From: a virus | Length of the DNA: 24,273 nt | IMG/VR virus record: IMGVR_UViG_3300046785_000220 | Location: 1-24,273 of that record | Direction: 5' to 3' (one strand) | Shown here: in pieces, positions 1-24,273 of the stretch | How positions within the stretch are numbered: the stretch's first letter is position 1 | How the letters are laid out: the number at the start of each line of letters is the position of its first letter | Program-made: the position numbers and the translations under genes | Notes under the pieces: generated by a model | Seen by the model: the letters and a program-made list of their open reading frames with translations, nothing else | The model's database searches: none | Told to the model about the DNA's origin: nothing

Positions 1-891
1 GGAAATACAATTGATTTTACAGGTGGAACAAATATAAATACAGAGAATGCTGGAGGCGAAACTAGGTTTCATCTAGACGATAGTATTACTTTAGCTGGTA
101 CGCTCACTGTAAACGGTACAGGACAATCAAGTTTTGCAGGTCAAGTAACAGTACCAACAACACCAAGCGCTGCAACTGATGCTGCTTCTAAATCTTATGT
201 ATTATCTCAAGTAGGTGGAGTTGGAGGTTTCCAAGGAGGATATAACGCAACTACAAATACACCAGCTTTAACAGGCGCGAGTAACGTCGCTTTAAATCAA
301 GGCGATTTTTATGTGGTAACTACAGCGGGTACATTTTTTACCGAAAACGTAGAAGTTGGTGATTTTATATTTGCCAATTCTAATATTGCTGCTAATTCTA
401 GTCCTTCGCTTTCTGACTACACTGTTGTTATAGCAGATCAAAACGTAGCAGGTGAAGGAGCTACAGATGGTGCAACTCAAAAAGGTGTTGCTGGTTTTAA
501 CTCCGCGCACTTTAATGTTACAGCAAACGGTTTTGTTTCTTCTGATATATATGCAGGAGGTTCTACACTGGGTATTGTACCAGCAGGAGGTGCTGGCACT
601 ACATTCCTTCGAGGTGATGGTACTTGGGCGGTTCCAGTGGATACAGGTGCTTTAGGTGATAGAGTCTCACTAACAGGTGGTAGTCAAGCTGGTGGTTTAA
701 CAACATTTACTTATAATGTTACTAACTCTTTCGCAGGTGCTAGCGCTATAGATGTTAAGTGCGAAGTTATAAGTTCTGCGGGTGAAACAGTATACGCAGG
801 CGTAACAAGATCAGGCGCGAATTTAAGTGTTGAATTTGTAGGTTCAATATCTGACGGTGCTTACGAAGTATTACTTACATACGTAGGATAG
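1..891 (+). CDS. Tail fibre-like structural protein (5' truncated)
   Basis: The reading frame is open from the first base and ends with TAG at 891, giving 296 residues of a protein whose start lies outside the window. The visible part is rich in Gly, Thr, Ala, Ser and Asn with almost no charged stretches, as expected of beta-rich fibre or appendage proteins. It has short beta-repeat phrases such as LAGTLTVNGTGQSSFAG near the truncated start, and the motif FLRGDGTWAVP (about 605-640), a phrase that recurs in phage tail-fibre and collar proteins. The C-terminal 80 residues look like a compact beta domain ending in DGAYEVLLTYVG. It sits 20 bases before the large S74 fibre, so the two probably belong to one host-attachment module. 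It could be a second fibre, a fibre adaptor or a structural appendage. The structural role is fairly secure; the exact role is not. An internal ATG at 310-315 is not a credible start because the same repetitive protein continues upstream. Confidence 0.75.
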   Translation, partial: GNTIDFTGGTNINTENAGGETRFHLDDSITLAGTLTVNGTGQSSFAGQVTVPTTPSAATDAASKSYVLSQVGGVGGFQGGYNATTNTPALTGASNVALNQGDFYVVTTAGTFFTENVEVGDFIFANSNIAANSSPSLSDYTVVIADQNVAGEGATDGATQKGVAGFNSAHFNVTANGFVSSDIYAGGSTLGIVPAGGAGTTFLRGDGTWAVPVDTGALGDRVSLTGGSQAGGLTTFTYNVTNSFAGASAIDVKCEVISSAGETVYAGVTRSGANLSVEFVGSISDGAYEVLLTYVG

Positions 892-911
892 TAATAAAAT
901 AATCAAATAAT

Positions 912-3900
912 ATGCCAATTAAATTTCTTAATGATGTCGCTGTAGACACTAGTGTTTTATATGTAGATACAATAAATGATAGGGTTGGTATCGGGACTAC
1001 AGAACCACGAGTGCCCCTGCAAGTATCGTCTTCGGAAGTTGATACAGATTTTTTAATAGAATGCAGCAGTACGCAGGCTAGGATGTCGATAAACAATACT
1101 TCGACGGGTGACTCGCAAATTAATTTTCAGCTAAGTAATTCTAGCAAATTTACTATAGGTGTGGACAATTCCGATAATGATAAGTTTAAAATATCAGGAA
1201 GTTCGGCCTTAGGATCCAACGATAGATTAGTTGTAGATTCTACAGGAAACGTCGGGATCGGGACGACTAGTCCATCTCAAAAACTGCACGTAGTAGGCAA
1301 TACCAAAATAGAAGGAGTAGTTATAGTTAATAGCGCAAATTCAAGTATTTATATCGGTGACTCCAACACTGGCCAAAGTTCAACATCAACAGGTGATAGA
1401 AATGTAGTTATTGGGCCATCTGCATTTAGAAGCAATACAAGTGCTAAATATAACACCGCTGTTGGGCATGCTGCAATGCAAGATACTACAACAGGTAATT
1501 ATAATTCTGTTTTAGGCAACCAAGCTTTGCGCGACAACATTGACGGGGATTTTAATGTTGCGGTTGGTAACCAAACTATGGCTTTTACTACAAATTCTAG
1601 CAACAATACAGCTGTCGGTTACCGCGCTTTATATCAAGCTCAGTCAGGTTCCAATACAGCAATAGGCCAAGGTGCTTTTAACAGTCTTCAATCTTCAACA
1701 AGTTCTGGCGGTAATACAGGAATAGGCCAAGAAGTATTAAACAAAATAACGAGCGGGCGAAGAAACGTAGGCGTGGGGCATGCTGCTGGGCAAAAATATG
1801 GAGGCGGTAATAATAATGTTGTAACAGCTAATGATTCTGTTTTTATAGGAGCTGATTCTGATGCAGGCGGTGATAACCAAACAAACCAAATAGTAATAGG
1901 TTATAACGCTATTGGCCTTGGTAGCAACACAGCGGTGCTTGGGAACAACAGTATAGTTACAACACAGCTAAAGGGCAACGTTGGAATCGGGACGACTAGT
2001 CCTGGGAATAAATTAGATATTGTAAGCGGATATAACAACGGGGTTAGAATATCTGGGCAAGGCACTGTAAACAATTGGATGGATATTAAAATCTTAAATT
2101 ATGTTACTGAAGCCCAGGCAGCATCTTTTACTGATTCCAACCATATTTATACAACGAACCCAACAAGCGGAACGGCTTTTCCTTTTACAGAATATGGTGC
2201 TTTAGTTATTGAAGGAAGAGATGATGCGAGCAATACCGGAATTGCATTAAGAACAGGTAACGGTAGCGGCCAAGAAACAAGATTAGCAATTTTAGGCAAC
2301 GGCAACGTAGGTATCGGGACGACTAGTCCAGCGGTTAAGCTTCATGTTGGCAGAACATCTACTTCTGGTACGACTACTGAAGAGTTTAGATTGCAATCTG
2401 GGACATCATCTGGGTTTGGTGGTACAGCGATTGCTAATTTAGTAACAGGTAGCTTTGGGACTTCAGGTATTTATTTTGGAAATTCAAGTACATATACTAG
2501 CCAAGATGCTTATTTAAAATATGCAGACAGCAATAATGCCACTACACTTCACTTTAGTTCTTCATTAAACTTAGAACAAGGCACTAGTGGCTCTAAAATG
2601 TATATTAATTCTTCGGGCAATGTAGGTATAGGAACTACTAGTCCTAGTAGAAAACTACAAGTTATAGGTACAGATGGTGTAGCTAAGTTTTATTATAATA
2701 GTAGCTTTACAAATGCTCAATATTCTGTAGTAGATATTGGTATGATGACTAGTGGTACTGCTGCAAACGGGTTTGGTCCTAAGATTACTTTTAGGATGGG
2801 TGGTAATGGTTATGACGGTTATACTGCTGGATCTATAGGAACAATAAGAAATGGTGCTGATAACACTCATAATCTTAATTTTGCAACTAGCAACGGTGGT
2901 TCTATGACTACTAAAATGACTATAACCAATACAGGCAATGTAGGTATCGGTACGAATAGCCCTGCTCACAAACTGCACGTTGTAGGAACCAACAATGACC
3001 CAATTATAAGAGCTGTAAGAGGTAACAACACTTCGCAGTATTTAGATATTAGGGGTTATCAAGTATTAAGCCAAGGTAATCATTTATTACTAACAGCAGA
3101 TGATACTAAAGAAATTTGGTTAGGGCAAGAATCTAATACGCAAAGAATGGTTATTAATTCCAGCGGCAAAGTTGGGATAGGCACGACTAGTCCTGCGGAC
3201 TTTCTGCACATTGGTAGTGTTGGTGGTGGCTCTATAAGAATTGAAACCTATGAAACTAATGCATATGCTCAAATAGCAAGCGCTGATGGTAATTTATCAC
3301 TAAGATCAGATCCATCAAACTCGTATTCGTTGTCAATTATTGATTTTACAATTGATAATAATGAAAAAATGCGCATAACCTCAGCAGGCAACGTCGGGAT
3401 TGGTACGACTAGTCCTGCATATTTACTTGATGTAAACGAAGATGATAACGTCTTGGCGTTTCGTGTTACAGGCGGAGGCGGCGGAGCACCAATAGCTAGT
3501 TTTGTAAGAGACGTAGGGGCTACTGGTTCTTCAGTAAATATAAATGCTCAAAGTAATTTTCCTCAAATACAATTTGCTAATACAGGTAATACTTTTTCAA
3601 TAGGCGGAGATACTTCTGGTAATTTTAAAATATCAGATAATACGGCTATTGGAACAAATGATAGAATTACAATTAATAATACTGGCAACGTCGGGATTGG
3701 AACGACGAGTCCATCAAATAAGCTTGATGTTAACGGGATAATAGAAGCTGATAAATTAATATTACCCACTGCGGGTACTGCCGGGGCTGGTACAGTTACG
3801 ACACCGGCTGGTAAACTTGATGTTAGAAGCGACAGCACCTGGTCTAATTCTGCTATTGTAGCACGCGGAACAACAAACCAAAACCCCGTGTTAGCCTTTT

Positions 3901-4925
3901 ATAGGCCAAGCGGTGGCGCTGCCACTTCATATCCTTGGTGGCTTGAAGCTAACGGAAGTACTTTTCAAATTAAAACAGGAAGCGCCGCTAATATAGGTTC
4001 TGAATCTGTTTCAACAAAAGTAACTATTAATAATTCTGGTGACGTTGGGATTGGAACGACGAGTCCAGCAGCTAAGCTTGAAGTAAACGGAACTTCTTTG
4101 CTTAGAGGTTTAGTTAATATAACTACAAGCGGCGAAATGTTAAGGTTAAATGACACAAATTCGTCAGGCAACCCTTATATGAGTTTTTACCAAAGTGGTG
4201 CTAGAAGATCTTTTATACAACATAATGACAGTGGTGATTACCTTAAGCTAGCGAGTGAGTATGGCGGTATTAGTTTCTTTACAGGAACAGGAGGTACATC
4301 AACTCAAAAAATGACAATACTGTCTGGGGGCGACGTTGGGATTGGGACTACTAGTCCAGGTTCTAGATTAAGTGTTATAGATGCAAGTACTGGAAGAACT
4401 TGGTCAGATTATTTTGCAACAGTGGCTACGTTTGAAAGAAACTCAGATTCAAATATAAATATAGTTTCTAGCAACACTGGTAATGGGGCAATTTGGTTTG
4501 GTGACACTAGCAGTATGGTTCGTGGTCGTATTAGATATGCACATAATGGCGATGAAATGTCGTTTTGGGTATCTGCAGCACCAAGAGCGACCCTTGATAG
4601 TTCTGGTAATTTAGCAATTACAGGCACACTATCTCAAAATTCAGATATTGTTTTAAAAGAAAACGTAGAAGATATTGACGGAGCTCTTGAAAAAGTAAAA
4701 CAATTACGGGGCGTTGAGTTTAATATGATTGGCGACGACAAAAAGCAGCTCGGGGTTATTGCTCAAGAAGTCGAAAAAGTACTGCCGGAACTCGTAACTG
4801 AAAAAGATGATATTAGAAGTGTAGCTTACGGAAATATTGCGGCTGTACTTATAGAAGCAATTAAAGAGCAGCAAAATCAAATAGAAAATTTAGAATCTAG
4901 AATACAAACTTTAGAAAACCAATAA
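912..4925 (+). CDS. Large tail fibre with YadA-like head, VGIGTTSP repeats and C-terminal S74 autoprotease chaperone
   Basis: This 1337-residue protein is a trimeric fibre candidate for host binding. Residues 1-160 hold the N-terminal beta region and the first two VGIGTT units. Residues about 164-345 contain some eleven copies of an N-x-A/V-V/I-G phrase (NTAVGHAAM, NTAVGYRAL, NTAIGQGAF), the signature of YadA-type left-handed beta-roll heads. The rest of the shaft is units of roughly 75-120 residues, each opening with a turn such as GNVGIGTTSP followed by KLHV or KLDV. The C-terminus is an intramolecular chaperone of the endosialidase type (peptidase S74): S1244-D-I-V-L-K1249, then LGVIAQEVEKVLPELV and a terminal coiled coil. 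In that family the Ser and the Lys five residues later drive self-cleavage after trimerisation. The start is the first ATG after the preceding stop; its leader AATCAAATAAT has no Shine-Dalgarno. The fibre role is secure; the receptor is unknown. Confidence 0.92.
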   Translation: MPIKFLNDVAVDTSVLYVDTINDRVGIGTTEPRVPLQVSSSEVDTDFLIECSSTQARMSINNTSTGDSQINFQLSNSSKFTIGVDNSDNDKFKISGSSALGSNDRLVVDSTGNVGIGTTSPSQKLHVVGNTKIEGVVIVNSANSSIYIGDSNTGQSSTSTGDRNVVIGPSAFRSNTSAKYNTAVGHAAMQDTTTGNYNSVLGNQALRDNIDGDFNVAVGNQTMAFTTNSSNNTAVGYRALYQAQSGSNTAIGQGAFNSLQSSTSSGGNTGIGQEVLNKITSGRRNVGVGHAAGQKYGGGNNNVVTANDSVFIGADSDAGGDNQTNQIVIGYNAIGLGSNTAVLGNNSIVTTQLKGNVGIGTTSPGNKLDIVSGYNNGVRISGQGTVNNWMDIKILNYVTEAQAASFTDSNHIYTTNPTSGTAFPFTEYGALVIEGRDDASNTGIALRTGNGSGQETRLAILGNGNVGIGTTSPAVKLHVGRTSTSGTTTEEFRLQSGTSSGFGGTAIANLVTGSFGTSGIYFGNSSTYTSQDAYLKYADSNNATTLHFSSSLNLEQGTSGSKMYINSSGNVGIGTTSPSRKLQVIGTDGVAKFYYNSSFTNAQYSVVDIGMMTSGTAANGFGPKITFRMGGNGYDGYTAGSIGTIRNGADNTHNLNFATSNGGSMTTKMTITNTGNVGIGTNSPAHKLHVVGTNNDPIIRAVRGNNTSQYLDIRGYQVLSQGNHLLLTADDTKEIWLGQESNTQRMVINSSGKVGIGTTSPADFLHIGSVGGGSIRIETYETNAYAQIASADGNLSLRSDPSNSYSLSIIDFTIDNNEKMRITSAGNVGIGTTSPAYLLDVNEDDNVLAFRVTGGGGGAPIASFVRDVGATGSSVNINAQSNFPQIQFANTGNTFSIGGDTSGNFKISDNTAIGTNDRITINNTGNVGIGTTSPSNKLDVNGIIEADKLILPTAGTAGAGTVTTPAGKLDVRSDSTWSNSAIVARGTTNQNPVLAFYRPSGGAATSYPWWLEANGSTFQIKTGSAANIGSESVSTKVTINNSGDVGIGTTSPAAKLEVNGTSLLRGLVNITTSGEMLRLNDTNSSGNPYMSFYQSGARRSFIQHNDSGDYLKLASEYGGISFFTGTGGTSTQKMTILSGGDVGIGTTSPGSRLSVIDASTGRTWSDYFATVATFERNSDSNINIVSSNTGNGAIWFGDTSSMVRGRIRYAHNGDEMSFWVSAAPRATLDSSGNLAITGTLSQNSDIVLKENVEDIDGALEKVKQLRGVEFNMIGDDKKQLGVIAQEVEKVLPELVTEKDDIRSVAYGNIAAVLIEAIKEQQNQIENLESRIQTLENQ
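981..4358 (+). repeat. Eleven dispersed VGIGTTSP-coding repeats within the fibre gene
   Basis: Eleven units encode VGIGT(T/N)(S/E)P. The first, at 981-1007, is degenerate (GTTEP) and the last is at 4332-4358. Spacing is mostly 220-360 bases, with one 730-base gap occupied by the YadA-like region. The DNA itself is conserved: the 17-mer atcgggacgactagtcc occurs identically at 1257-1273, 1986-2002 and 2313-2329, and gggattggaacgacgagtcc occurs at 3693-3712 and 4047-4066. Synonymous positions are kept, so the units look recently duplicated or homogenised by recombination. Confidence 0.9.
4641..4922 (+). other. S74 chaperone domain and predicted self-cleavage site
   Basis: Predicted cleavage lies between Asn1243 and Ser1244 of the fibre, at base 4641. 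Ser1244 and Lys1249 have the Ser-(x4)-Lys spacing of the endosialidase-type intramolecular chaperone. The released C-terminal fragment would be 94 residues, ending in a coiled coil (IKEQQNQIENLESRIQTLE). Its AQEVEKVLPELV segment is the family hallmark. Cleavage is inferred from family knowledge. Confidence 0.85.
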
Positions 4926-4958
4926 AATAAGTAATTAATAAATATAAACTAAACAAAA

Positions 4959-5300
4959 ATGGCAAATACATATTCTTGGCAAATAAATGCTTTAGATACA
5001 TATCCTTCGCAAGAAGATTTAGCGGATGTTGTTTACAACGTTCACTGGGGAATGACAGCTACGTCTGATCAAACAGATGCCGAGGGCGTTGCCTATACAG
5101 TAAATTCTATCGGAACACAAACTGTAACGGCGCCTGATGCAGACGATTATACAGCTTTTGAAGATCTTACGCGAGAAATTGTTGAAGCATGGCTAGAAGC
5201 AAGTGATTTAGACGTTGAGGCAATCAAAGAAGGTCTTGACGCGCAAATTGAAGAAAAAATTACACCTACCAGTGTAACCAAGCAGTTACCAACTGCATAA
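4959..5300 (+). CDS. Conserved small phage protein of unknown function (113 aa)
   Basis: The product begins MANTYSWQINALDTYPS and contains LADVVYNVHWGMTAT, a central Val/Thr-rich beta stretch, and a helical C-terminal half (FEDLTREIVEAWLEASDLDVEAIKEGLDAQIEEK) ending SVTKQLPTA. I recognise this N-terminus and this ending from small proteins common in marine phage genomes, where they lie near tail-fibre or structural genes. I know of no established biochemical function. It is acidic and has no signal peptide or membrane segment. It lies 33 bases after the fibre gene and 30 before the coiled-coil gene, with an A-rich leader (actaaacaaaa) directly before the ATG. A structural or fibre-accessory role is guessed from position only. 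Confidence 0.85.
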   Translation: MANTYSWQINALDTYPSQEDLADVVYNVHWGMTATSDQTDAEGVAYTVNSIGTQTVTAPDADDYTAFEDLTREIVEAWLEASDLDVEAIKEGLDAQIEEKITPTSVTKQLPTA

Positions 5301-5330
5301 TTATTATTAACAATTAAATTAAATTAAATT

Positions 5331-5591
5331 ATGTCTAACGACGCAAAAATAACCGAAGAGCAATTAAAACAATTGCAAGGGTTTGTACAAACCTTAAACC
5401 AAGCACAAATGCAATTAGGCCAGCTAGAAGTTGAAAAGCACGGGCTATTGCACCAAACCGCTGATGTCCAATCACAATTACAAACGTTCCAAAAAGAACT
5501 TGAAGAAGAATACGGAAAAGTATCTGTAAACATTCAAGATGGAACTTATACAGCAATCCCGGACGAAGATGAATCTGATAAGAAAGATTAG
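5331..5591 (+). CDS. Small coiled-coil protein (86 aa), function unknown
   Basis: An acidic 86-residue protein, mostly helical. Residues 7-62 are rich in Gln, Glu and Leu with heptad-like spacing (EEQLKQLQGFVQTLNQAQ, LQTFQKELEEEYG), predicting a coiled coil. It is followed by a short beta-like segment (KVSVNIQDGTYTAI) and a charged tail (DEDESDKKD). Proteins of this design recur in the same place in marine phages; no function is established. The leader contains a short tandem AAATT repeat just before ATG and no Shine-Dalgarno. Its last 23 bases overlap the next gene, suggesting coupled translation. There is no sign of secretion or membrane insertion. Confidence 0.8.
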   Translation: MSNDAKITEEQLKQLQGFVQTLNQAQMQLGQLEVEKHGLLHQTADVQSQLQTFQKELEEEYGKVSVNIQDGTYTAIPDEDESDKKD

Positions 5592-5787
5592 TATCGGGAG
5601 AGACTATAAAAATGAAGCTATGCATTACTCCGTAGGCCAAGAGGTTTACGGAGGGCATACTATTTGTGATATAGTTGAAGAAGAAAAAAAATACAGTATT
5701 TATATTAAAAAAAACAACGAAGTATTGCCCTGGAAAGACTTCAATAAAAACATGGCAGTAGCAGTTGAATATAATCTAGAATATTAA
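5569..5787 (+). CDS. Conserved small phage protein of unknown function (72 aa)
   Basis: A 72-residue product beginning MNLIRKISIGRDYKNEAMHY, followed by SVGQEVYGGHTICDIVEEE, a KYSIYIKKN strand, and VLPWKDFNKNMAVAVEYNLEY. The RKISIG-DYK-AMHY-VGQEV opening resembles small proteins I know from phages of Bacteroidetes, which is why I start at 5569 rather than at the upstream ATG (5539) or at the internal ATG (5620). This start makes it overlap the preceding gene by 23 bases. Its stop overlaps the next start by one base (TAATG), so translation is probably coupled through three genes. It looks like a small all-beta domain. Function unknown; I do not assign one. Confidence 0.75.
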   Translation: MNLIRKISIGRDYKNEAMHYSVGQEVYGGHTICDIVEEEKKYSIYIKKNNEVLPWKDFNKNMAVAVEYNLEY

Positions 5788-6392
5788 TGCGAAGCATTTT
5801 TAGTTTTATAGTTGAGCCAAAAGAAGAGCGTTACAATAACAAAAAACAAATTGGCAATAACGAATTAATATTAAATACAGAAATATCTGATCACAGGTAT
5901 ATTAGCAGAAATGCTATTGTACTTGAAACGCCGATTGCAGAAAAAACTGATATTAAAAAAGGTGACGAAGTAATCGTCCACCATAATGTTTTTCGCCGGT
6001 GGTACGACGTTCGCGGTAAAGAAAAAAATTCTAGAAGCTTTTTTGAAGATAATAAATATTTTATTGAAACAGATCAAATATTTTTATATAAACGTAAAAA
6101 TAAATGGTGTGCACCAAAAGGATTTTGTTTTGTAAAACCTTTAAAGTCTAAAAATAAATTTGATACAAATAACGAAAGACCTTTAATAGGCTTTATAAAA
6201 TATGCCGATAAAGTATTAGAAAAAAATGGTATTAAGCCCGGGACTTTAGTAGGCTTCAAGCCTTCAAGCGAATACGAATTCGTTATTGACGGCGAACGAT
6301 TTTATAGAGTGCAAACAGATTTTATTACAATTAAATATGAATACCAAGGAGACGAAACGGAATATAATCCGAGCTGGGGAAAAAGCGGTTAA
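5787..6392 (+). CDS. Protein with two GroES-like (Hsp10) barrels
   Basis: This 201-residue protein shows two successive stretches resembling the GroES/Cpn10 beta-barrel. Copy one (about residues 8-104) has FIVEPKEE, then IGNNELILNT, AIVLETPI and DIKKGDEVIVHHNVFRRWYD; copy two (about 114-185) has CFVKPLKS, GFIKYADKV, GIKPGTLVGFKP and YEFVIDGERFYRVQTDFITIKY. In GroES the order is a V-K-P-L strand, a mobile loop, a G-x-V strand, a K-x-G-D-x-V strand and a final D-G-E-x-Y strand, matching both copies. Known phage co-chaperonins (T4 gp31) act with host GroEL to fold capsid protein. Position just before the packaging genes fits such a role, but this is inference, and the large loop between the halves is unusual. 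Alternatively the fold serves a structural role. TAATG junction upstream; the final 56 bases overlap the next gene. Confidence 0.7.
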   Translation: MRSIFSFIVEPKEERYNNKKQIGNNELILNTEISDHRYISRNAIVLETPIAEKTDIKKGDEVIVHHNVFRRWYDVRGKEKNSRSFFEDNKYFIETDQIFLYKRKNKWCAPKGFCFVKPLKSKNKFDTNNERPLIGFIKYADKVLEKNGIKPGTLVGFKPSSEYEFVIDGERFYRVQTDFITIKYEYQGDETEYNPSWGKSG

Positions 6393-6612
6393 AGAGCTTA
6401 TAAAGGTAGCTGAAGAAAAAATCATTACTAATACAGAAGATGATGTGTCTGCCGACAGACTTAAAAATGCAGCCGCTACTAAAAAACTAGCAATATTCGA
6501 CGCGTTTGAAATTCTTACTAGGATTGAAGTAGAAAAAGCATTATTAGAAAACAAGCCTTTAGTAGAAGAAAAAAAAGCTTTTAAAGGCTTTGCTGAAAAA
6601 AGAAGTAAGTAA
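6337..6612 (+). CDS. Small helical protein upstream of terL; candidate small terminase subunit
   Basis: A 91-residue, mostly helical, lysine- and glutamate-rich protein: AGEKAVKELIKVAEEKII, then a DDVSADRLKNAAATKKLAIFDAFEILTRIEVEKALLE core and a basic ending GFAEKRSK. The SADRLKNAAATKKLAI-DAFEIL phrase is one I recall from small marine phage proteins encoded directly before the large terminase. Its position, its size and the basic helical segments make a DNA-recognising small terminase subunit plausible, but no helix-turn-helix is certain. I place the start at ATG 6337 (MNTKETKRNIIRAG), not at the alternative 6286 start 17 codons upstream, because the family begins near here. Even so, it overlaps the preceding gene by 56 bases. 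The stop overlaps the terL start by one base (TAATG). Confidence 0.75.
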   Translation: MNTKETKRNIIRAGEKAVKELIKVAEEKIITNTEDDVSADRLKNAAATKKLAIFDAFEILTRIEVEKALLENKPLVEEKKAFKGFAEKRSK

Positions 6613-8831
6613 TGTACCAGCAGACATTATATAAGGTTATAGAGCCTATTAAAATAAATAAGTTAAAACGCTTTAATAAAGCGAAACGCTGGAAGTACGG
6701 TTATGACAAAGAAGAAGATATTGTTATTATAAGTAAAACTGGGCAAATAGGTGAAGTATACGAAATACAAAACCTTAAAATAGCATTACCGCCGGCTCCT
6801 ACAAAACTAACTAAAGGGCAAAATAAATGGGTTAAAAAAGATTACCCTAAAGAGCTTAATAAAATAAAAACCATATTTGATTGGAAAGGCTATCCGCAAG
6901 AATTTCAAGAAATGTGGGAACCATACATAGATGAAGAATTCAAACGACGCGAAGAAGGCCATTGGTTCTATAATAGAGATGTGGCTACTTACATTACTGG
7001 TACTAATTACATGTACCTGCAGTGGACCAAGATTGATATTGGGGCACCAGAGTTTAGAGAAGCAAACAGATTATTCTTTATATTCTGGGAAGCTTGCAAA
7101 GCAGATCAGAGATGCTACGGGATGTGTTACCTCAAAAACAGACGATCAGGATTTAGCTTTATGGCCTCTGGCGAAACAGTTAACCAAGCAACAATATCAA
7201 GCGACGCAAGATTTGGTATCTTATCAAAATCAGGGGGTGATGCTAAAAAAATGTTTACCGACAAAGTTGTACCAATATCAATTAACTATCCCTTCTTTTT
7301 TAAACCAATACAGGACGGGATGGATCGTCCTAAAACAGAATTAGCGTATAGAGTACCGGCTTCAAAACTTACAAGAAAGTCTATTGAATCAGGCCAGCAA
7401 CGCGAAGAACTTGAAGGACTAGATACAACTATTGACTGGAAAAACACAGGTGATAACAGCTATGATGGTGAAAAGCTAAAGCTATTAGTACACGATGAAA
7501 GCGGTAAATGGGAAAGACCTGATAACATATTAAATAACTGGAGAGTTACAAAAACAACATTAAGGTTAGGTAGCAGGGTTATCGGTAAATGCATGATGGG
7601 ATCAACCTCAAACGCATTAGACAAAGGCGGTGAAAACTTTAAAAAACTATATAATGATTCCAACGTTATTAAAAGAAACCGCAATGGACAGACTCGCAGC
7701 GGATTATATAGCTTGTTCATACCTATGGAGTGGAACTACGAAGGATTCATTGATACTTATGGAATACCTGTATTTGATACGCCAAAAAAACCAACTGAAG
7801 GGCCGTACGGAGACGTTATAGATGTCGGTGTTATTGAGCACTGGGATAATGAGGTTGATGGATTAAAAGGTGACCAGGACGGCTTAAACGAATATTATAG
7901 ACAGTTTCCGCGTACAGAGGAGCATGCGTTCCGCGATGAAACAAAAAATAGCATATTTAATCTAGCTAAAATATACGAGCAAATAGATTACAATGACGAT
8001 ATTGAATCTTTGGCCGGTGTTACAACTGGTAGTTTCCAATGGGAAAACGGCATAAAAGATAGTAAAGTAGAATTTATACCAAATCCAAGCGGAAGGTTTA
8101 AAGTAAGTTGGGTGCCACCTGCAAATTTACAAAATCGTGTAATAGTAAAGAATGGGGTAAATTATCCAGGAAACGAGCATATGGGTGCATTTGGCTGTGA
8201 TAGTTACGATATATCAGGCACTACAGACGGTCAAGGATCTAAAGGTGCATTGCACGGATTAACAAAATTTAGTATGGAAGATGCTCCAGCTAATATGTTT
8301 TTTTTAGAATATGTAGCGCGGCCGCAAACGGCTGAAATGTTTTTTGAAGATGTGCTTATGTCATTGGTATTTTACGGAATGCCGTTACTTGCAGAAAATA
8401 ACAAACCTAGATTATTATATTATTTAAGAAGAAGAGGCTATCGTGGATTTTCAATGAACCGCCCTGATAAAGCTAGAAATAAATTATCTGTCACAGAAAA
8501 AGAAATTGGAGGTATACCAAACTCCTCAGAAGATATTAGGCAAGCGCATGCTGCCGCTATTGAATCTTATATTCAAAATTATGTTGGAATTATAAACGAG
8601 GGCGAATATGGTAATATGTATTTTAATAATACATTAAACGATTGGTCTAAATTCAACATTAATAAAAGAACAAAATATGATGCCGCGATAAGTTCGGGCC
8701 TCGCTATTATGGCTTGTAATAAAAATCTTTATAAGCCCAATCAAGAAAAGCAAAAATTAAAAGTTAACTTTAATATCGGAAGATATACAAACGATGGTAG
8801 TACCTCGAAACTTATAAAAAACAATGGCTGA
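6612..8831 (+). CDS. terL: Terminase large subunit (packaging ATPase and nuclease)
   Basis: This 739-residue protein is the motor that pumps phage DNA into the procapsid and cuts it. The N-terminal ATPase domain shows a divergent Walker A region, L174-KNRRSGFS, where the usual P-loop Lys is absent and basic residues precede the Gly, as in a number of terminases. The Walker B motif LKLLVHDE (residues 289-296) provides Asp295 and the catalytic Glu296. The C-terminal RNase H-like nuclease is marked by FGCDSYDISG with Asp530, and by a late Asp690 in KYDAAISSGLA. It is at the large end for the family, mainly because of about 100 extra N-terminal residues. It starts in a TAATG overlap with the small helical gene and its last 8 bases overlap the portal gene. 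It is the only gene here ending in TGA. Confidence 0.93.
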   Translation: MYQQTLYKVIEPIKINKLKRFNKAKRWKYGYDKEEDIVIISKTGQIGEVYEIQNLKIALPPAPTKLTKGQNKWVKKDYPKELNKIKTIFDWKGYPQEFQEMWEPYIDEEFKRREEGHWFYNRDVATYITGTNYMYLQWTKIDIGAPEFREANRLFFIFWEACKADQRCYGMCYLKNRRSGFSFMASGETVNQATISSDARFGILSKSGGDAKKMFTDKVVPISINYPFFFKPIQDGMDRPKTELAYRVPASKLTRKSIESGQQREELEGLDTTIDWKNTGDNSYDGEKLKLLVHDESGKWERPDNILNNWRVTKTTLRLGSRVIGKCMMGSTSNALDKGGENFKKLYNDSNVIKRNRNGQTRSGLYSLFIPMEWNYEGFIDTYGIPVFDTPKKPTEGPYGDVIDVGVIEHWDNEVDGLKGDQDGLNEYYRQFPRTEEHAFRDETKNSIFNLAKIYEQIDYNDDIESLAGVTTGSFQWENGIKDSKVEFIPNPSGRFKVSWVPPANLQNRVIVKNGVNYPGNEHMGAFGCDSYDISGTTDGQGSKGALHGLTKFSMEDAPANMFFLEYVARPQTAEMFFEDVLMSLVFYGMPLLAENNKPRLLYYLRRRGYRGFSMNRPDKARNKLSVTEKEIGGIPNSSEDIRQAHAAAIESYIQNYVGIINEGEYGNMYFNNTLNDWSKFNINKRTKYDAAISSGLAIMACNKNLYKPNQEKQKLKVNFNIGRYTNDGSTSKLIKNNG

Positions 8832-11247
8832 AGCAGTTAGTAAAAGTTATTTTCCTAGTCAAGTAGCTAGCGATGAAGAAAAAATGAGCCTCGGCTATGG
8901 TGATAAAATAGCCAGAGCTATTGAACACGAATGGTTTAAAAGAGATTCTGGAACAAACAGGTATCATTTAAATCAACAAAATTTTCATAAGCTAAGATTA
9001 TATGCAAGAGGAGAGCAATCTTCGCAAAAATATAAAGATGAGCTGTCTATTAACGGGGACATGTCTTATCTTAATCTTGATTGGAAGCCTGTGCCGATTA
9101 TACCTAAGTTTGTAGATATTGTGGTTAATGGTATAGCTGAAAGAGGCTACGATATAAAAGCATATTCGCAAGACCCATATGGTGTTTCTAAACGCACACA
9201 ATATATGGAAGGCTTGATGATAGATATGAAAACTAAAGATTTGGCTGATTTTTCAGAACAAAACTTTGGAATTAAAATAGCTCAAACAAAAAAAGACAAG
9301 CTGCCACAAGATGAGGAAGAGCTACAGCTCCACATGCAGTTAAATTACAAACAAGCGGTTGAACTTGCCGAAGAGCAAGCTTTAGCTGTTGTATTTGAAC
9401 AAAATAAATACGAATTAACTAAAAAGCGTTTTTATTATGATTTAGCCGTATTAGGCATAGGTGCTACTAAAACAACATTTTCAACAGCAGAGGGTATTAA
9501 AATAGAATATGTAGACCCTGCTAATTTAGTTTATTCTTATACGGATTCCCCGTATTTTGATGACATATATTATGTTGGGGAAATGAAATCAGTCCCAATA
9601 AACGAACTTAAAAAAGAATTCCCTAATCTTACGCAAGAAGATTTAGAAGAAATTACTAAAACTGGAAATACCTCTTACAAAACGTATAATAAGTATAATA
9701 CAGATAATAATAGATATGACGTAAATACGGTTGATGTACTATATTTTAATTATAAAACCTATGTAAATGAGGTTTATAAAATTAAACAAACCGGTAGCGG
9801 CGCTGAAAAAGTAATACCTAAAAACGATTTATTCAACCCTCCTAATGACCCTAGAGCTAAGTTTTCAAAAATATCTAGATCAGTTGAAGTGCTATTTGAG
9901 GGGGTATATATTTTAGGTTCTCGTAAATTATTAAAATGGGAGCTAGCACCCAATATGCTAAGAATGAAAAGCGATATGAATAAGGTTCGCATGAACTATT
10001 CTATTGTAGCACCTAGAATGTACAACGGGCGTATTGAGTCGCTTGTTAGCAGAGTAACGGGGTTTGCCGACATGATACAGCTAACGCATTTAAAAATACA
10101 ACAAGTTATGGCGCGAATGGTGCCGGACGGTGTGTATCTTGATGCTGATGGTTTAGCTGAAATTGACTTAGGCAACGGAACAAATTATAATCCGCAAGAA
10201 GCACTTAATATGTTTTTTCAAACGGGCTCTGTTATTGGTAGATCATTTACATCAGATGGCGATTTAAATCCTGGTAAAATACCGATTCAACAAATTGCAT
10301 CAAATCCAGGCAGTAATAAAATTGCGTCGTTAATCAGTACATACAATTATTACTTACAAATGATGCGTGATGCTACAGGTCTGAATGAGGCAAGAGACGG
10401 TAGTAGCCCAGATAAAAATGCTTTAGTAGGTGTTCAAAAGCTAGCTGCTATGAATTCAAATACCGCAACAAGGCACATATTGCAAAGTGGATTGTTTTTA
10501 ACTGCTGAAACTGCAGAAAAAATATCTTTAAGAATATCTGATATTATTGAATACTCGCCTACTAAAGATGCTTTTATACAACAAATAGGAGTACATAATG
10601 TGGCGACATTAGCCGAGCTAGATGAATTGCACTTATATGATTTTGGTATATTCATTGATTTAATGCCGGATGAAGAGCAAAAACAAATGCTTGAAAATAA
10701 TATTCAAGTTGCTTTATCGGCTGGATTAATAGATTTAGATGATGCTATAGATTTAAGAGAAATAAAAAATATAAGATTAGCAAATCAATTGTTAAAAATA
10801 CGTAAAGGCAAAAAACAATTAAAAGACCAACAAATTCAGCAGCAAAATATACAGGCTCAATCGCAAGCTAATGCTCAAGCGCAACAAGTAGCAGCTCAGG
10901 CCGAGGTGCAAAAACAACAAGCACTCACAGCTAGTAAGATACAACTTGAACAAGCTAAAGCGGGTATAGATTCCAATAAGCTAGTGCAAGAAGCGCAACT
11001 AAAAAAAGAACTTATGCAGTTAGAATTTTCAATGAATATGCAGCTGCGTGACAATGATTTAAATTTAAAGAAAAAGGAATTAACTGAAAAAGAAGATCGA
11101 AAAGATGATAGAACGAGGCTGGTTGCTTCGCAGCAATCAGAATTGATTGATCAAAGAAAAAACAATTTACCACCAAAAAACTTCGAATCCTCTGGAAACG
11201 ATATAATTAGTGGTAATTTTAACTTAGGTTCTTTTGAACCCAAGTAA
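8824..11247 (+). CDS. Portal protein
   Basis: An 807-residue protein placed directly after terL, where the portal ring normally lies. Twelve copies would form the channel for DNA entry and exit and the docking site for terminase and the tail. Residues 1-330 form a mixed N-terminal part. The core holds ELAPNMLRMKSDMNKVRMNY (about 376-396) and SLISTYNYYLQMMRDATGLNEARDG (about 500-525), phrases I associate with portals of marine podoviruses, followed by long helices. From about 645 to 780 the chain is Gln/Ala/Lys-rich (QQQNIQAQSQANAQAQQVAAQAE) and should form a long helical barrel or coiled coil pointing into the head. The last 25 residues are disordered-looking. Its start overlaps terL by 8 bases. 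The portal call rests on position, length and motif memory rather than on catalytic residues. Confidence 0.85.
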   Translation: MAEAVSKSYFPSQVASDEEKMSLGYGDKIARAIEHEWFKRDSGTNRYHLNQQNFHKLRLYARGEQSSQKYKDELSINGDMSYLNLDWKPVPIIPKFVDIVVNGIAERGYDIKAYSQDPYGVSKRTQYMEGLMIDMKTKDLADFSEQNFGIKIAQTKKDKLPQDEEELQLHMQLNYKQAVELAEEQALAVVFEQNKYELTKKRFYYDLAVLGIGATKTTFSTAEGIKIEYVDPANLVYSYTDSPYFDDIYYVGEMKSVPINELKKEFPNLTQEDLEEITKTGNTSYKTYNKYNTDNNRYDVNTVDVLYFNYKTYVNEVYKIKQTGSGAEKVIPKNDLFNPPNDPRAKFSKISRSVEVLFEGVYILGSRKLLKWELAPNMLRMKSDMNKVRMNYSIVAPRMYNGRIESLVSRVTGFADMIQLTHLKIQQVMARMVPDGVYLDADGLAEIDLGNGTNYNPQEALNMFFQTGSVIGRSFTSDGDLNPGKIPIQQIASNPGSNKIASLISTYNYYLQMMRDATGLNEARDGSSPDKNALVGVQKLAAMNSNTATRHILQSGLFLTAETAEKISLRISDIIEYSPTKDAFIQQIGVHNVATLAELDELHLYDFGIFIDLMPDEEQKQMLENNIQVALSAGLIDLDDAIDLREIKNIRLANQLLKIRKGKKQLKDQQIQQQNIQAQSQANAQAQQVAAQAEVQKQQALTASKIQLEQAKAGIDSNKLVQEAQLKKELMQLEFSMNMQLRDNDLNLKKKELTEKEDRKDDRTRLVASQQSELIDQRKNNLPPKNFESSGNDIISGNFNLGSFEPK

Positions 11248-11279: not shown

Positions 11280-12509
11280 ATGGCTGAAAACATAGAAGCA
11301 AAATTAATTGATAGCGAAGAGCCTTCAATTCAAGAAAAAGAACAAGCAGTTCTGGAAAATGCCGGAATTGACATTAACAAAGACGACGGTGTATTTAAAG
11401 TTGACCTTAGTAAACCGCCTGTTGAAAAAGAAGAACCAACCGATGCCATTCAAGAGCAAAGCGCAGATGAGGTTCCTGTTCGCGACGAACCCGAAGCTAG
11501 CCAAGAAGTGGCAGAAGAAGTACGGAGTACAGAAGAACCTTCCCAAGAAAGTGAAGAACAAGAAGAAGAAGAAGTAGTTTTACAAGAAATTACTGAAGAA
11601 GAAATTACAGAAGAGGCAGAAGCCTCCCCTACTGCAGAAGAAGTTATAGAAGCAGTAGAAGAATCACAAGAAACAGGGATTGAACTTCCTGAAAATATTC
11701 AAAAAGTTGTTGACTTTATAAACGACACAGGCGGAACACTCGAAGATTACGTAAGTTTAAATAAAGATTATTCTAATGTAGATGATCAAAACTTACTTAA
11801 AGAGTATTACCAAAAAACTAAACCTCATCTTTCAATAGATGAAATTGATTTTTTAATTGAAGATAAATTTTCATTTGACGAAGAGATTGATGAGGAAAGA
11901 GACATAAAGCGTAAAAAGCTTGCATTTAAAGAAGAATTAGCTGGCGCTAAAAATCATTTAGATGGTCTTAAAACAAAATACTATGAAGAAATTAAAGGCG
12001 GTTCTAAGTTAACTCAGGACCAACAAAAAGCCGTTGATTTTTTCAATAGGTATAACAAAGAAACTGAAGAAGTAACAAAAGTAGCTGAAAAACAAAAATC
12101 ATTATTTCAACAAAAAACTAATCAAGTTTTTTCCGATCAATTCAAAGGTTTTGAATATAACGTCGGCGAAAAGAAATATAGATTTAATGTTAAAAATACA
12201 GATGAAGTAAAGACAACCCAAAGTGATATTAATAATTTTGTCAAAAAGTTTTTGAACGAAAATAATGAAATGTCAGATGCTAAAGGTTATCATAAATCTT
12301 TATTTACAGCTATGAATGCGGATACAATTGCAAATCATTTCTATCAGCAGGGTAAAACCGACGCGCTGAGGGAAAGCATGGGTAAAGCTAAAAATATCAA
12401 AATGGACCCGAGAGGGGTGCATAATCAACCTGGTAATAATAGCGGAATCAAAGCACGAGTTGTAGGTGAATCAACCTCTTCACTAAAAATGAAACTTAAA
12501 AATTATTAA
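11280..12509 (+). CDS. Probable capsid scaffolding protein
   Basis: A 409-residue protein between portal and major capsid genes, the usual position of a scaffold. Residues 33-125 are extremely acidic (for example QESEEQEEEEVVLQEITEEE), low in complexity and probably disordered. Residues 135-290 are charged helices with possible coiled coil (RKKLAFKEELAGAKNHLDGL). The C-terminal part contains GYHKSLFTAMNADTIANHFYQ and a basic end (IKARVVGESTSSLKMKLKNY) that could bind the inner capsid shell. No protease motif is apparent. The acidic region at residues 55-99 is read in a second frame by a small gene (11443-11577), and there the main frame uses unusual C- or G-ending codons such as CGG, CCC and TCC. 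The leader is AT-only apart from a few bases. Confidence 0.78.
   Translation: MAENIEAKLIDSEEPSIQEKEQAVLENAGIDINKDDGVFKVDLSKPPVEKEEPTDAIQEQSADEVPVRDEPEASQEVAEEVRSTEEPSQESEEQEEEEVVLQEITEEEITEEAEASPTAEEVIEAVEESQETGIELPENIQKVVDFINDTGGTLEDYVSLNKDYSNVDDQNLLKEYYQKTKPHLSIDEIDFLIEDKFSFDEEIDEERDIKRKKLAFKEELAGAKNHLDGLKTKYYEEIKGGSKLTQDQQKAVDFFNRYNKETEEVTKVAEKQKSLFQQKTNQVFSDQFKGFEYNVGEKKYRFNVKNTDEVKTTQSDINNFVKKFLNENNEMSDAKGYHKSLFTAMNADTIANHFYQQGKTDALRESMGKAKNIKMDPRGVHNQPGNNSGIKARVVGESTSSLKMKLKNY
11443..11577 (+). CDS. Overprinted small basic phage protein (MPFKSKAQ family), nested in the scaffold gene
   Basis: A 44-residue protein is encoded wholly inside the scaffold gene in the +1 frame. It starts at ATG 11443 with MPFKSKAQMRFLFATNPK, continues LAKKWQKKYGVQKNLPKK and ends in a lysine run at TAG 11575-11577. 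The pattern MPFKS-x-AQ-x-x-F-x-x-A-x-x-P-x-x-A-K-x-W is that of a small protein I recognise from many phage genomes, usually as a stand-alone gene; its function is not known to me. Chance agreement across start, motif and basic tail is unlikely. The open frame extends upstream to 11308, but those 45 residues do not belong to the family pattern, so I start at 11443. The leader gttgaaaaagaagaaccaac is A-rich, like other starts here. It would be strongly basic, while its host frame is strongly acidic. Expression is not shown. Confidence 0.78.
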   Translation: MPFKSKAQMRFLFATNPKLAKKWQKKYGVQKNLPKKVKNKKKKK

Positions 12510-12520
12510 AAAATAAAAAA

Positions 12521-13927
12521 ATGGCAATATTAAAAGGAGCTGGAAACGTTGATGCTTTTCCAACAAAAAGAGCATTAGCTTCCAACTATTTAAACTTTAC
12601 CGACGCTTCAAGCGATTGGTCACAACAATACTTACCTGAGCTTTACGAACAAGAAGTAGAGCGTTACGGTAACCGTTCAGTATCATCTTTCCTACGTATG
12701 GTAGGTGCAGAAATGCCTATGGCTTCTGACCAAGTTGTTTGGTCTGAACAAGGACGTCTACACTTGTCTTACGGTACTGCAGGTGATAATACAGCTATAG
12801 TACAAGACGCTGACCTAGGTGTAATAAGAATTGCAGCCGGTCACGCAATACGTCTTGGGCAATTAGTTGTAATTTCTGATGGAACTACAACTACTAAAGG
12901 ATACGTTTCTGCTGTAAATGCAAACGGAACAGATATTACTGTTCTTCCTTATGACGCTGCAAACCTAGACACTGCTTATAATGATGCAACACAAATCAAA
13001 CTTTTTGTATTTGGTTCTGAATTTAAGAAAGGTGATGTTGGAATGCAAGGCGATACGCTTTCTCCAACTTTTACAACTTTTACAAACAAGCCTGTTATTA
13101 TCAAGGATAAATTTGAAATCTCTGGTTCTGACGCTTCACAAATTGGTTGGGTTGAAGTTTCTGGGGAAGCAGGTGAATCTGGGTACCTATGGTATATCAA
13201 AGCTGAAGGGGAAACTCGCACACGTTTTGAAGACTATCTTGAAATGACATTAGTAGAAGCTGAAAAAGGAGCTGCTACAAACACTGTAGACACCGCTCTT
13301 GGAAGTACAGCTGATGTTGGTACAGAAGGTTTATTTGCGGCTATTGAGTCAAGAGGACATACTGCAACAATGTTTGATGGCGATGCTGCGGCAACCGGAG
13401 TAGACATTAAAGACCTTATCACTAAGCTTGATGCTCAAGGCGCAATTGAAGAAAATATGTTCTTCTTAAACCGCGACCGTAATCTAGCTCTTGATGATTA
13501 TTTAGCTGCTCAGAATTCTTATGGAGCCAGCGGTACATCTTACGGTGTATTTGAAAACAGTGAAGACATGGCGCTAAACCTTGGCTTTTCTGGATTCCGC
13601 AGAGGTTCTTACGATTTCTATAAGTCTGACTGGAAATATCTAAATGACGGACAAACTCGTGGATTTATCGATGACATCAAAGGTGTTATGGTTCCTGCTG
13701 GTACTTCGTCTGTATATGACCAAGCTTTAGGCAAGAACATTCGTCGCCCATTCCTTCACGTACGTTATCGTGCTTCTGAAGCTGATGATCGAAGAATGAA
13801 ATCTTGGATTACTGGTTCAGTAGGTGGTGCATCTACAAGCAGCCTAGACGCAATGGAAGTACACTATTTATCTGAAAGATGTTTAGTTGTACAAGCTGCA
13901 AACAACTTCGTATTGTTTAACGCATAG
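12521..13927 (+). CDS. Major capsid protein (probable HK97 fold)
   Basis: A 468-residue protein forming the head shell. It is identified from position (portal, scaffold, this gene), length, and phrases I know from capsid proteins of uncultured marine phages: YGNRSVSSFLRMVGAEMPM, SDQVVWSEQGRLHLSYG, ALNLGFSGFRRGSYDFYKSDW, RRPFLHVRYRASEADDRRMK, and the ending HYLSERCLVVQAANNFVLFNA. There is no evident N-terminal prohead-protease or delta domain. Codon use differs from that of its neighbours: 16 of its 22 Arg codons are CGN, mostly CGT, whereas the surrounding genes lean on AGA. This fits selection for very high expression. The gene begins after an A-rich leader (aaaaaataaaaaa) and is followed 11 bases later by a strong terminator. 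Confidence 0.9.
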   Translation: MAILKGAGNVDAFPTKRALASNYLNFTDASSDWSQQYLPELYEQEVERYGNRSVSSFLRMVGAEMPMASDQVVWSEQGRLHLSYGTAGDNTAIVQDADLGVIRIAAGHAIRLGQLVVISDGTTTTKGYVSAVNANGTDITVLPYDAANLDTAYNDATQIKLFVFGSEFKKGDVGMQGDTLSPTFTTFTNKPVIIKDKFEISGSDASQIGWVEVSGEAGESGYLWYIKAEGETRTRFEDYLEMTLVEAEKGAATNTVDTALGSTADVGTEGLFAAIESRGHTATMFDGDAAATGVDIKDLITKLDAQGAIEENMFFLNRDRNLALDDYLAAQNSYGASGTSYGVFENSEDMALNLGFSGFRRGSYDFYKSDWKYLNDGQTRGFIDDIKGVMVPAGTSSVYDQALGKNIRRPFLHVRYRASEADDRRMKSWITGSVGGASTSSLDAMEVHYLSERCLVVQAANNFVLFNA

Positions 13928-23138: not shown

Positions 23139-24273
23139 ATGAGCAACCAATTTTTAGTTGGTGATCAAATGTTTACAGAAGAGCAAATGATTGCCGATGC
23201 ACAACTAATGGGTATATCTTTAGAAGAATATAAAAAATATTATAATGTTCAATCAGATAAAAACGGAATTGAGCAAACAGATCCATTTTTGAAAAATGCA
23301 AAGACACCCGGCCCTGCGGAGGAAGCTGCACTTGTGGGGCCAATAAACCAGACGCAGCAAAGTGGGGAATCAGCATTGGAAGATTCTTCATTGGAATCAG
23401 CGCAAACAGCTGATGATTTAATACCTGAAGTTTTTGTTGGGGAAGATTACAGTATTGATAATGCCCCTAAATTTATTCCAGATGGGTTGGGTGGCGTGGA
23501 GCAAGTTGACGCGGAAAAATATAAGCAATATTATGATACTCTTTCTGAAGATAGAAAGCAATTTAAGTATGATCAAAATATTGCATACCCAGAACTTGTT
23601 TCAAATTATACAGATTTTTTAAATCAAAATTTTATTGATAACCCTAATGCTTTAAAAGAAATTACAGGGACTACCAGCCCTTTTTATGTGTTACAAGACA
23701 ATAAAAAAGCTGTGCCAAATAATTTAAAAAAAGAAGTTAATAGGGCAACAGAAAAATATAATGATCTTCGCAGGTCTCAAAATTTACCTGTTATAGAAGA
23801 TAATGCGTTTTATCAACAAACTTTTGAAGATTTATTTTATGCAAAATCTAAAATTGAAGGTGATAAATTCAAAATAAATCGAGATAATGAATATGTTGCA
23901 AATACCCCAGAAAAAGAACAAAAAACTGTAATTGATTCTTTAGATAATAATATTAAACAATCTTTAGACCCCAGGATAATAGCTTGGCGGGATGCGCAGG
24001 TAAAAGCTTCAAAAGATCCTAATTATAAAAATACGCCTGAGTATAGGACTGCTCAAAGTAAAGGGCTGTTTTTAAGGAAGGAAGGTTTGTTTTTTGATGC
24101 GGAAGGAATGAATATATCTACAAAAGGCCAAGCAAAAACCGCTGTAGATATTACTACTATTTATGAAGCAAACTTAGATATGCTAGCCGGTCTTGCAACC
24201 GATGAAGAAAAATTAAAAAATAGTTATGATGATTTTCTTCTTTCTAAAGCGGCATATATAGAAAAAGGCAATG
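23139..24273 (+). CDS. Probable large internal virion protein (3' truncated by window end)
   Basis: The frame opens at ATG 23139, one base after the preceding stop, and stays open to the end of the window: 378 complete codons without a stop. It begins MSNQFLVGDQMFTEEQMIAD-AQLMGISLEEYKKYY. A disordered, Pro/Glu/Gln/Ser-rich region follows (about residues 50-90), then DLIPEVFVGEDYSID and a long charged helical segment (YKQYYDTLSEDRKQFKYDQN). The opening resembles N-termini of very large proteins that follow the nozzle and small internal genes in marine podovirus-like phages. These probably travel inside the head and enter the cell with the DNA, sometimes carrying lysozyme or polymerase domains further downstream. 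No enzymatic motif is visible in the part present. Role inferred from position. Confidence 0.72.
   Translation, partial: MSNQFLVGDQMFTEEQMIADAQLMGISLEEYKKYYNVQSDKNGIEQTDPFLKNAKTPGPAEEAALVGPINQTQQSGESALEDSSLESAQTADDLIPEVFVGEDYSIDNAPKFIPDGLGGVEQVDAEKYKQYYDTLSEDRKQFKYDQNIAYPELVSNYTDFLNQNFIDNPNALKEITGTTSPFYVLQDNKKAVPNNLKKEVNRATEKYNDLRRSQNLPVIEDNAFYQQTFEDLFYAKSKIEGDKFKINRDNEYVANTPEKEQKTVIDSLDNNIKQSLDPRIIAWRDAQVKASKDPNYKNTPEYRTAQSKGLFLRKEGLFFDAEGMNISTKGQAKTAVDITTIYEANLDMLAGLATDEEKLKNSYDDFLLSKAAYIEKGN

Follow-up and report, generated by a model that had tools for sequence, protein, structure and literature searches.

The 24,273-nucleotide stretch of viral DNA analysed here (the window; IMG/VR record IMGVR_UViG_3300046785_000220) raises the question of whether 135 bases within a putative head scaffolding gene encode two proteins at once. 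We consider it very probable that they do, and that this is a real and functional gene within a gene, whose product, a protein of the phrog_1375 family, starts at an internal ATG, and which occupies a slot where one nested gene can be swapped for another; function and expression are inferred. The host gene (positions 11280-12509, + strand; 409 aa) was delineated from the ORF list, its position between portal and capsid genes and the similarity of its core. Upstream lies the gene of a portal protein, phrog_6547 (8824-11247, + strand; E = 4.1e-142), and downstream that of a virion structural protein, the probable major capsid protein, phrog_13704 (12521-13927, + strand; E = 1.1e-96), whose product is 45-50% identical to structural proteins of Flavobacterium, Maribacter and Manatee Spring phages. 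Proteins encoded at the equivalent position in elemovirus, Panino and Manatee Spring phages share 31-32% identity with the core of the host protein, the elemo counterpart being annotated as 'structural protein'. The host protein is acidic, helical and partly disordered, with the acidic disordered region in its N-terminal third, and AlphaFold2 assigns residues 45-114 a pLDDT below 50, which predicts disorder. Profile searches of the host protein matched no scaffolding family, and the assignment as a head scaffolding protein, based on position and these properties, remains putative.

Read in the +1 frame of the same strand, positions 11443-11577 (+ strand) give MPFKSKAQMRFLFATNPKLAKKWQKKYGVQKNLPKKVKNKKKKK, a product of 44 aa followed by a TAG stop; in frame 0 the same 135 bases encode residues 55-99 of the 409-aa acidic ORF, and both the start and the stop of the nested frame lie inside the host ORF. 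The assignment as a small gene of type A, phrog_1375-like, rests on translation, profile match, relatives and codon-position constraint. A preliminary description of this DNA had proposed a basic 44-residue protein in the +1 frame of the scaffold gene, and translation, homology and comparative conservation confirm it. The HMM search it recommended matched phrog_1375, weakly for the window copy (E = 0.0032); 27 of 35 family members match this profile (26 of the 34 aligned members other than the window product), with a best E of 1.4e-6. In the 35-member alignment, M1, P2, Q8, P17 and A20 are invariant. The nested product has the features of the type A family, which opens with MPFKSxxQ and combines two helices and an LPxK motif with a basic tail; the MPFKSxxQ start, a helix, the LP-K motif and the basic tail are what it has in common with phrog_1375. 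With 17 Lys/Arg and no Asp/Glu it appears, by inspection, basic and soluble. Searches of Pfam and NCBIfam gave no match for the small protein, and PHROGs, Pfam and NCBIfam record no function for phrog_1375-like proteins. So far phrog_1375 is known only as a protein family, and we found neither a record of its nested state nor a paper naming it in the open-access literature. A PDB sequence search with the family profile returned mainly designed 'Cake'/'Scone' repeat proteins; no stretch passed alone, and these hits were judged spurious.

The length of the ORF carries no weight here. When synonymous codons of the host gene in the window were permuted, the probability that the stretch remains open was 0.35, and that of any equally long +1 ORF was 0.62; a single-sequence test of this kind has no power given the E/K-rich composition. 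The evidence for a nested gene is homology and comparative conservation, not ORF length. It could be argued that the +1 ORF is a mere by-product, held open by a conserved host peptide and its E-rich purine runs without any second protein being made, since GAA-rich host sequence yields AAG-rich +1 sequence with few stops and the ORF is of unremarkable length in the window alone. The codon positions contradict this argument. Each base that is third in a host codon is second in a +1 codon, whereas the wobble base of the +1 frame falls on host position 1. Inside the overlap, host third positions hardly vary and host first positions change fastest, the opposite of what conservation driven by the host protein would produce. 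Among the genes grouping with the window's copy, pairwise differences at position 3 amount to 0.041 inside the overlap versus 0.301 outside, and codons for the same residue differ synonymously in 3% of cases inside versus 25% outside. By Fitch parsimony, the ratio of changes at position 3 to those at position 1 (pos3/pos1) is 0.59 inside versus 1.87 outside for type A (Fisher p = 9e-52), 0.39 versus 1.83 for type B (p = 2e-32) and 0.42 versus 2.09 for type C (p = 1e-102), the three types being described below; these p values are optimistic in that codon changes were treated as independent. Sliding windows locate the dip on the nested codons, with the host pattern resuming upstream of the ATG, and the suppression of host-frame synonymous change that the preliminary description had named as a check is found exactly over the nested gene. 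The reversal recurs in seven groups, namely the three scaffold types and four groups of giant ORFs. The by-product argument also leaves unexplained why the +1 translation resembles a protein family that has stand-alone members. Nor is openness of the +1 frame automatic, because the 15 scaffolds that have no nested ORF are also acidic and contain 3-12 stops in that frame at this place. We find this explanation scarcely credible. The substitution patterns thus demonstrate a coding constraint and show purifying selection on the +1 frame. The host frame is open in all full-length relatives and its core is conserved, so that selection acts on both frames.

The rare host codons CGG, CCC, CGC and TCC noted earlier are indeed present in the overlap, and in type A genes the host-frame third-position GC is 0.33 within the overlap versus 0.23 elsewhere. 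It is noted that a second, weaker and unexplained drop in pos3/pos1 (to about 0.8-1.3) is seen in types A and B at scaffold codons about 261-290 (window positions 12060-12150); it may reflect misalignment or some other constraint.

The nested frame is widespread among relatives of the host gene. Of the 80 loci obtained when IMG/VR was searched with the host protein, only L058 has no +1 ORF at the nested site, the form in L066 being a derived one that has lost the family start. Pooled scans yielded 299 unique full-length host genes, and 277 of them carry an ORF at the site, in +1 without exception. Three types were distinguished: type A, MPFKSKAQ-like (99 genes); type B, with the pattern MPFKNKKQ..C....GKKPKWNC (69 genes); and type C, with the pattern MKLKKITLTTxEWLxS..MPxPQKNKKKYNRKxKHKK (109 genes). 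The remaining 22 genes belong to none of these. Types A and B have a common start (hhalign E = 7.5e-5 over 18 residues), and a comparison of type C with type A gave no similarity. It should be kept in mind that types B and C are over-sampled, having been collected largely by direct searches for the nested ORF, in which 160 of 160 loci proved to be nested in the scaffold gene. Scans using the host gene alone found the ORF in 70 of 72 and in 45 of 63 unique genes. Absence of the +1 frame in relatives, which would have undermined the preliminary description had it been usual, is confined to about 20 of some 135 host genes that were found without using the nested gene. The classification demands an ATG, so conservation of the start codon is partly by construction; no listed gene retains the family motif without an ATG.

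Five of the 22 genes outside the three types keep the tail of a type A relative, two are the distant Panino and elemo genes, and 15 are truly without the ORF. In the five (L066, L338, L337, L341 and L350), a derived +1 ORF in the N-terminal region of the scaffold gene retains the tail KNKFPRMSKxAFSRR of the type A relative L053, and the MPFKS start is gone, apparently replaced by another sequence. About 15 host genes are devoid of any such ORF and no type A copy was found elsewhere in the ten contigs tested, so the nested protein is either dispensable or has been replaced by something unrecognised. A separate full copy of the family elsewhere in the genome, which would also have spoken against the nested gene, was not found in the large records tested, although these may be incomplete.

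A tree built from 190 host cores shows the three types and the ORF-less state scattered among one another, and requires the type to have changed at least 35 times. The host cores of L145 (type A) and L292 (type B) are 94% identical and their downstream flanks 91-97%, compared with about 64% over the nested ORF. Likewise, L070 (type C) and L105 (type A) have cores 94% identical and are 92-97% identical on both sides of the nested ORF, but only 51-65% inside it. Because the abrupt divergence in such close pairs is confined to the nested ORF, the nested gene behaves as an exchangeable cassette, and these comparisons demonstrate swapping; each exchange leaves both frames intact. We propose that the site serves as a docking slot in this group of Bacteroidota podovirus-like phages, with homologous recombination in the flanking host-gene sequence replacing the cassette (A, B, C or none) while both frames stay open. 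The nested gene of the preliminary description is real, but its exchange with two other nested genes, and its occurrence in a second, unrelated host gene, had not been seen. Three nested types at one position, with flanks more than 90% identical, amount to natural replicates for measuring two-protein coding.

Type A proteins are also encoded by stand-alone genes in several phages. One of these, L092, has a portal gene (phrog_156, E = 1e-19) on one side and a head scaffolding gene (phrog_3927, E = 2.5e-8) on the other, and another is gp48 of Streptomyces phage FlowerPower. In still other phages, type A sequences occur inside giant ORFs (eight loci in one search and about two dozen in another), always in +1. 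Among the records listed, cultured Flavobacterium elemoviruses have a family match under a long 'structural protein' CDS; for MT497078 this CDS spans 3-11006 and is the only one annotated there in the record, the nested ORF lying at 3583-3711, around host residue 1194. The Manatee Spring phage has a family match in +1 inside its own giant CDS, and the scaffolds of elemo, Panino and Manatee Spring phages examined contain no family ORF. Four giant-ORF groups show pos3/pos1 of 0.20-0.53 inside the nested frame versus 1.5-2.3 in the flanks, and the host sequence surrounding the cassette varies from locus to locus; one giant ORF contains a large-polyvalent-protein domain and a ParB domain. Host genes of no fewer than two unrelated kinds thus harbour the nested family, in each case in +1. 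Outside the scaffold group the family is either stand-alone or nested, with its relative frame unchanged, in giant structural or polyvalent ORFs. It was also observed that in the giant ORFs L424-L439 the nested protein alternates between ...YLYSQKPELAKKW... and ...ACYSQDNPKWDCKKW..., which suggests swapping in giant ORFs too. At the end of the window, a long ORF begins at position 23139 and runs off the contig at 24273; it may be the counterpart of the elemo/Manatee Spring giant structural ORF that hosts a nested copy.

These distributions bear on the origin of the nested gene. Overlapping genes of viruses are said to arise mostly by overprinting, with phiX174 cited (PMC8227390), and the nested form is very common in the present phages; the small protein might therefore have been born de novo inside the scaffold gene and have escaped later to stand-alone positions. 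Stand-alone members in unrelated phages such as FlowerPower, the presence of the family in a second unrelated host gene and its absence from the distant scaffold relatives (elemo, Panino, Manatee Spring) weigh against such a birth, and we regard it as improbable but worth keeping in mind, the direction being unproven without a rooted family tree.

How the nested protein would be made has been inferred from the sequence around its ATG. An A-rich, weakly structured leader (positions 11413-11442, + strand), recognised from the composition at -20 to -1 and the minimum free energy (MFE), is the probable region of internal initiation. Positions -20 to -1 of the nested ATG are 61% A in type A genes. 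The mean MFE at the nested ATG is -2.6, -1.7 and -0.5 kcal/mol for types A, B and C, compared with about -5.3 kcal/mol at other out-of-frame ATGs; at the host's own start the values are -1.4, -1.5 and -0.5 kcal/mol. The A-rich leader is partly a by-product of the Glu/Lys/Gln-rich linker. The remaining gene starts of the window are likewise rich in A/T and show no clear Shine-Dalgarno site, which fits expectation for phages of Bacteroidota, to which the hosts of the nearest cultured relatives belong. One could instead envisage that a +1 frameshift joins the nested product to the N-terminus of the scaffold, without use of its own ATG, as the nested frame is often open upstream of the ATG (89 codons in the window). 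We consider this route very unlikely, given that the stand-alone homologues begin at the same Met-Pro, that Met1 and Pro2 are invariant in the alignment, and that the codon-position signal is back to the host pattern upstream of the ATG. Internal initiation on the late scaffold mRNA without a Shine-Dalgarno sequence is, by inference and in the absence of expression data, the likeliest route, and the model would place a small basic phrog_1375-family protein, translated from its own ATG in +1, within the disordered acidic linker of the scaffold.

The two products differ in charge: the mean net charge of the nested proteins is +12.6 to +14.3, and that of the host segments is -10.7 to -13.7. The preliminary description took these opposite charges as a hint that the two products might bind each other, and one could go on to infer that the overlap is kept for the sake of the complex. 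The genetic code offers a simpler account: Lys is encoded by AAG in 65-74% of cases in nested genes versus 24% in the host core (51% in stand-alone copies), and shifting the reading of an AAG run back by one base gives GAA, or Glu, which places an acidic linker opposite a basic tail. The charges consequently give the binding idea no support, and mutual binding was rejected as an unnecessary cause of them. Host first positions also change quickly inside the overlap, and the family exists without any scaffold overlap, so that retention of the overlap for a complex seems unlikely to us. What the code does show is that a basic protein and an acidic linker are compatible in one stretch of DNA.

AlphaFold2 predicts the nested protein to be a confident helical hairpin (helices 6-15 and 17-27; pLDDT 84) with a basic tail, and a Foldseek search of the PDB with it found no significant match. 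The host segment, being predicted to be disordered, would tolerate dictation by another frame. We infer that the protein is made late, together with the scaffold, and that this two-helix product acts in head morphogenesis by binding nucleic acid or assembly components; charge and gene neighbourhoods are all that suggests such a late function in assembling the head or handling DNA, which is a guess. A spanin identity was rejected by inspection, as the protein has no lipobox or transmembrane segment.

The usual view of nested genes is that they are frozen, having arisen where they lie and being bound to one host gene. Out-of-frame genes inside structural or other genes, as at the present locus, are familiar from Microviridae and leviviruses (phiX174 E in D; single-gene lysis genes); to our knowledge these arose in place in one host gene, and we know of no exchange of nested genes at one slot. 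Unlike this usual view, the present case has a recognisable family that is nested in some phages and free in others, and that changes host genes. We found no report in the open-access literature of a family moving in this way, nor of a single site at which distinct nested genes take each other's place. The classic parallel is lambda Rz/Rz1, in which a small gene also lies wholly inside another, in +1, over a flexible part of the host, and is often missed by gene callers (PMC6139136). Spanins, however, are membrane/lipoprotein lysis partners working together, and the spanin survey found no family mixing embedded with overlapped or separated members (PMC6139136), whereas the present family is stand-alone, scaffold-nested and giant-ORF-nested, and is swapped for others. 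We think it likely that phages carry out-of-frame passenger genes in disordered linkers of large structural genes, exchanged as cassettes, with unrelated passengers sharing a slot, both frames intact and the gene missed by gene callers. The implication is that many viral genomes hold uncounted conserved proteins within long structural ORFs. Elsewhere in the window, the 1337-aa ORF at positions 912-4925 contains the repeat GNVGIGTTSP many times over and ends in what looks like an intramolecular chaperone; it is likely a tail fibre gene.
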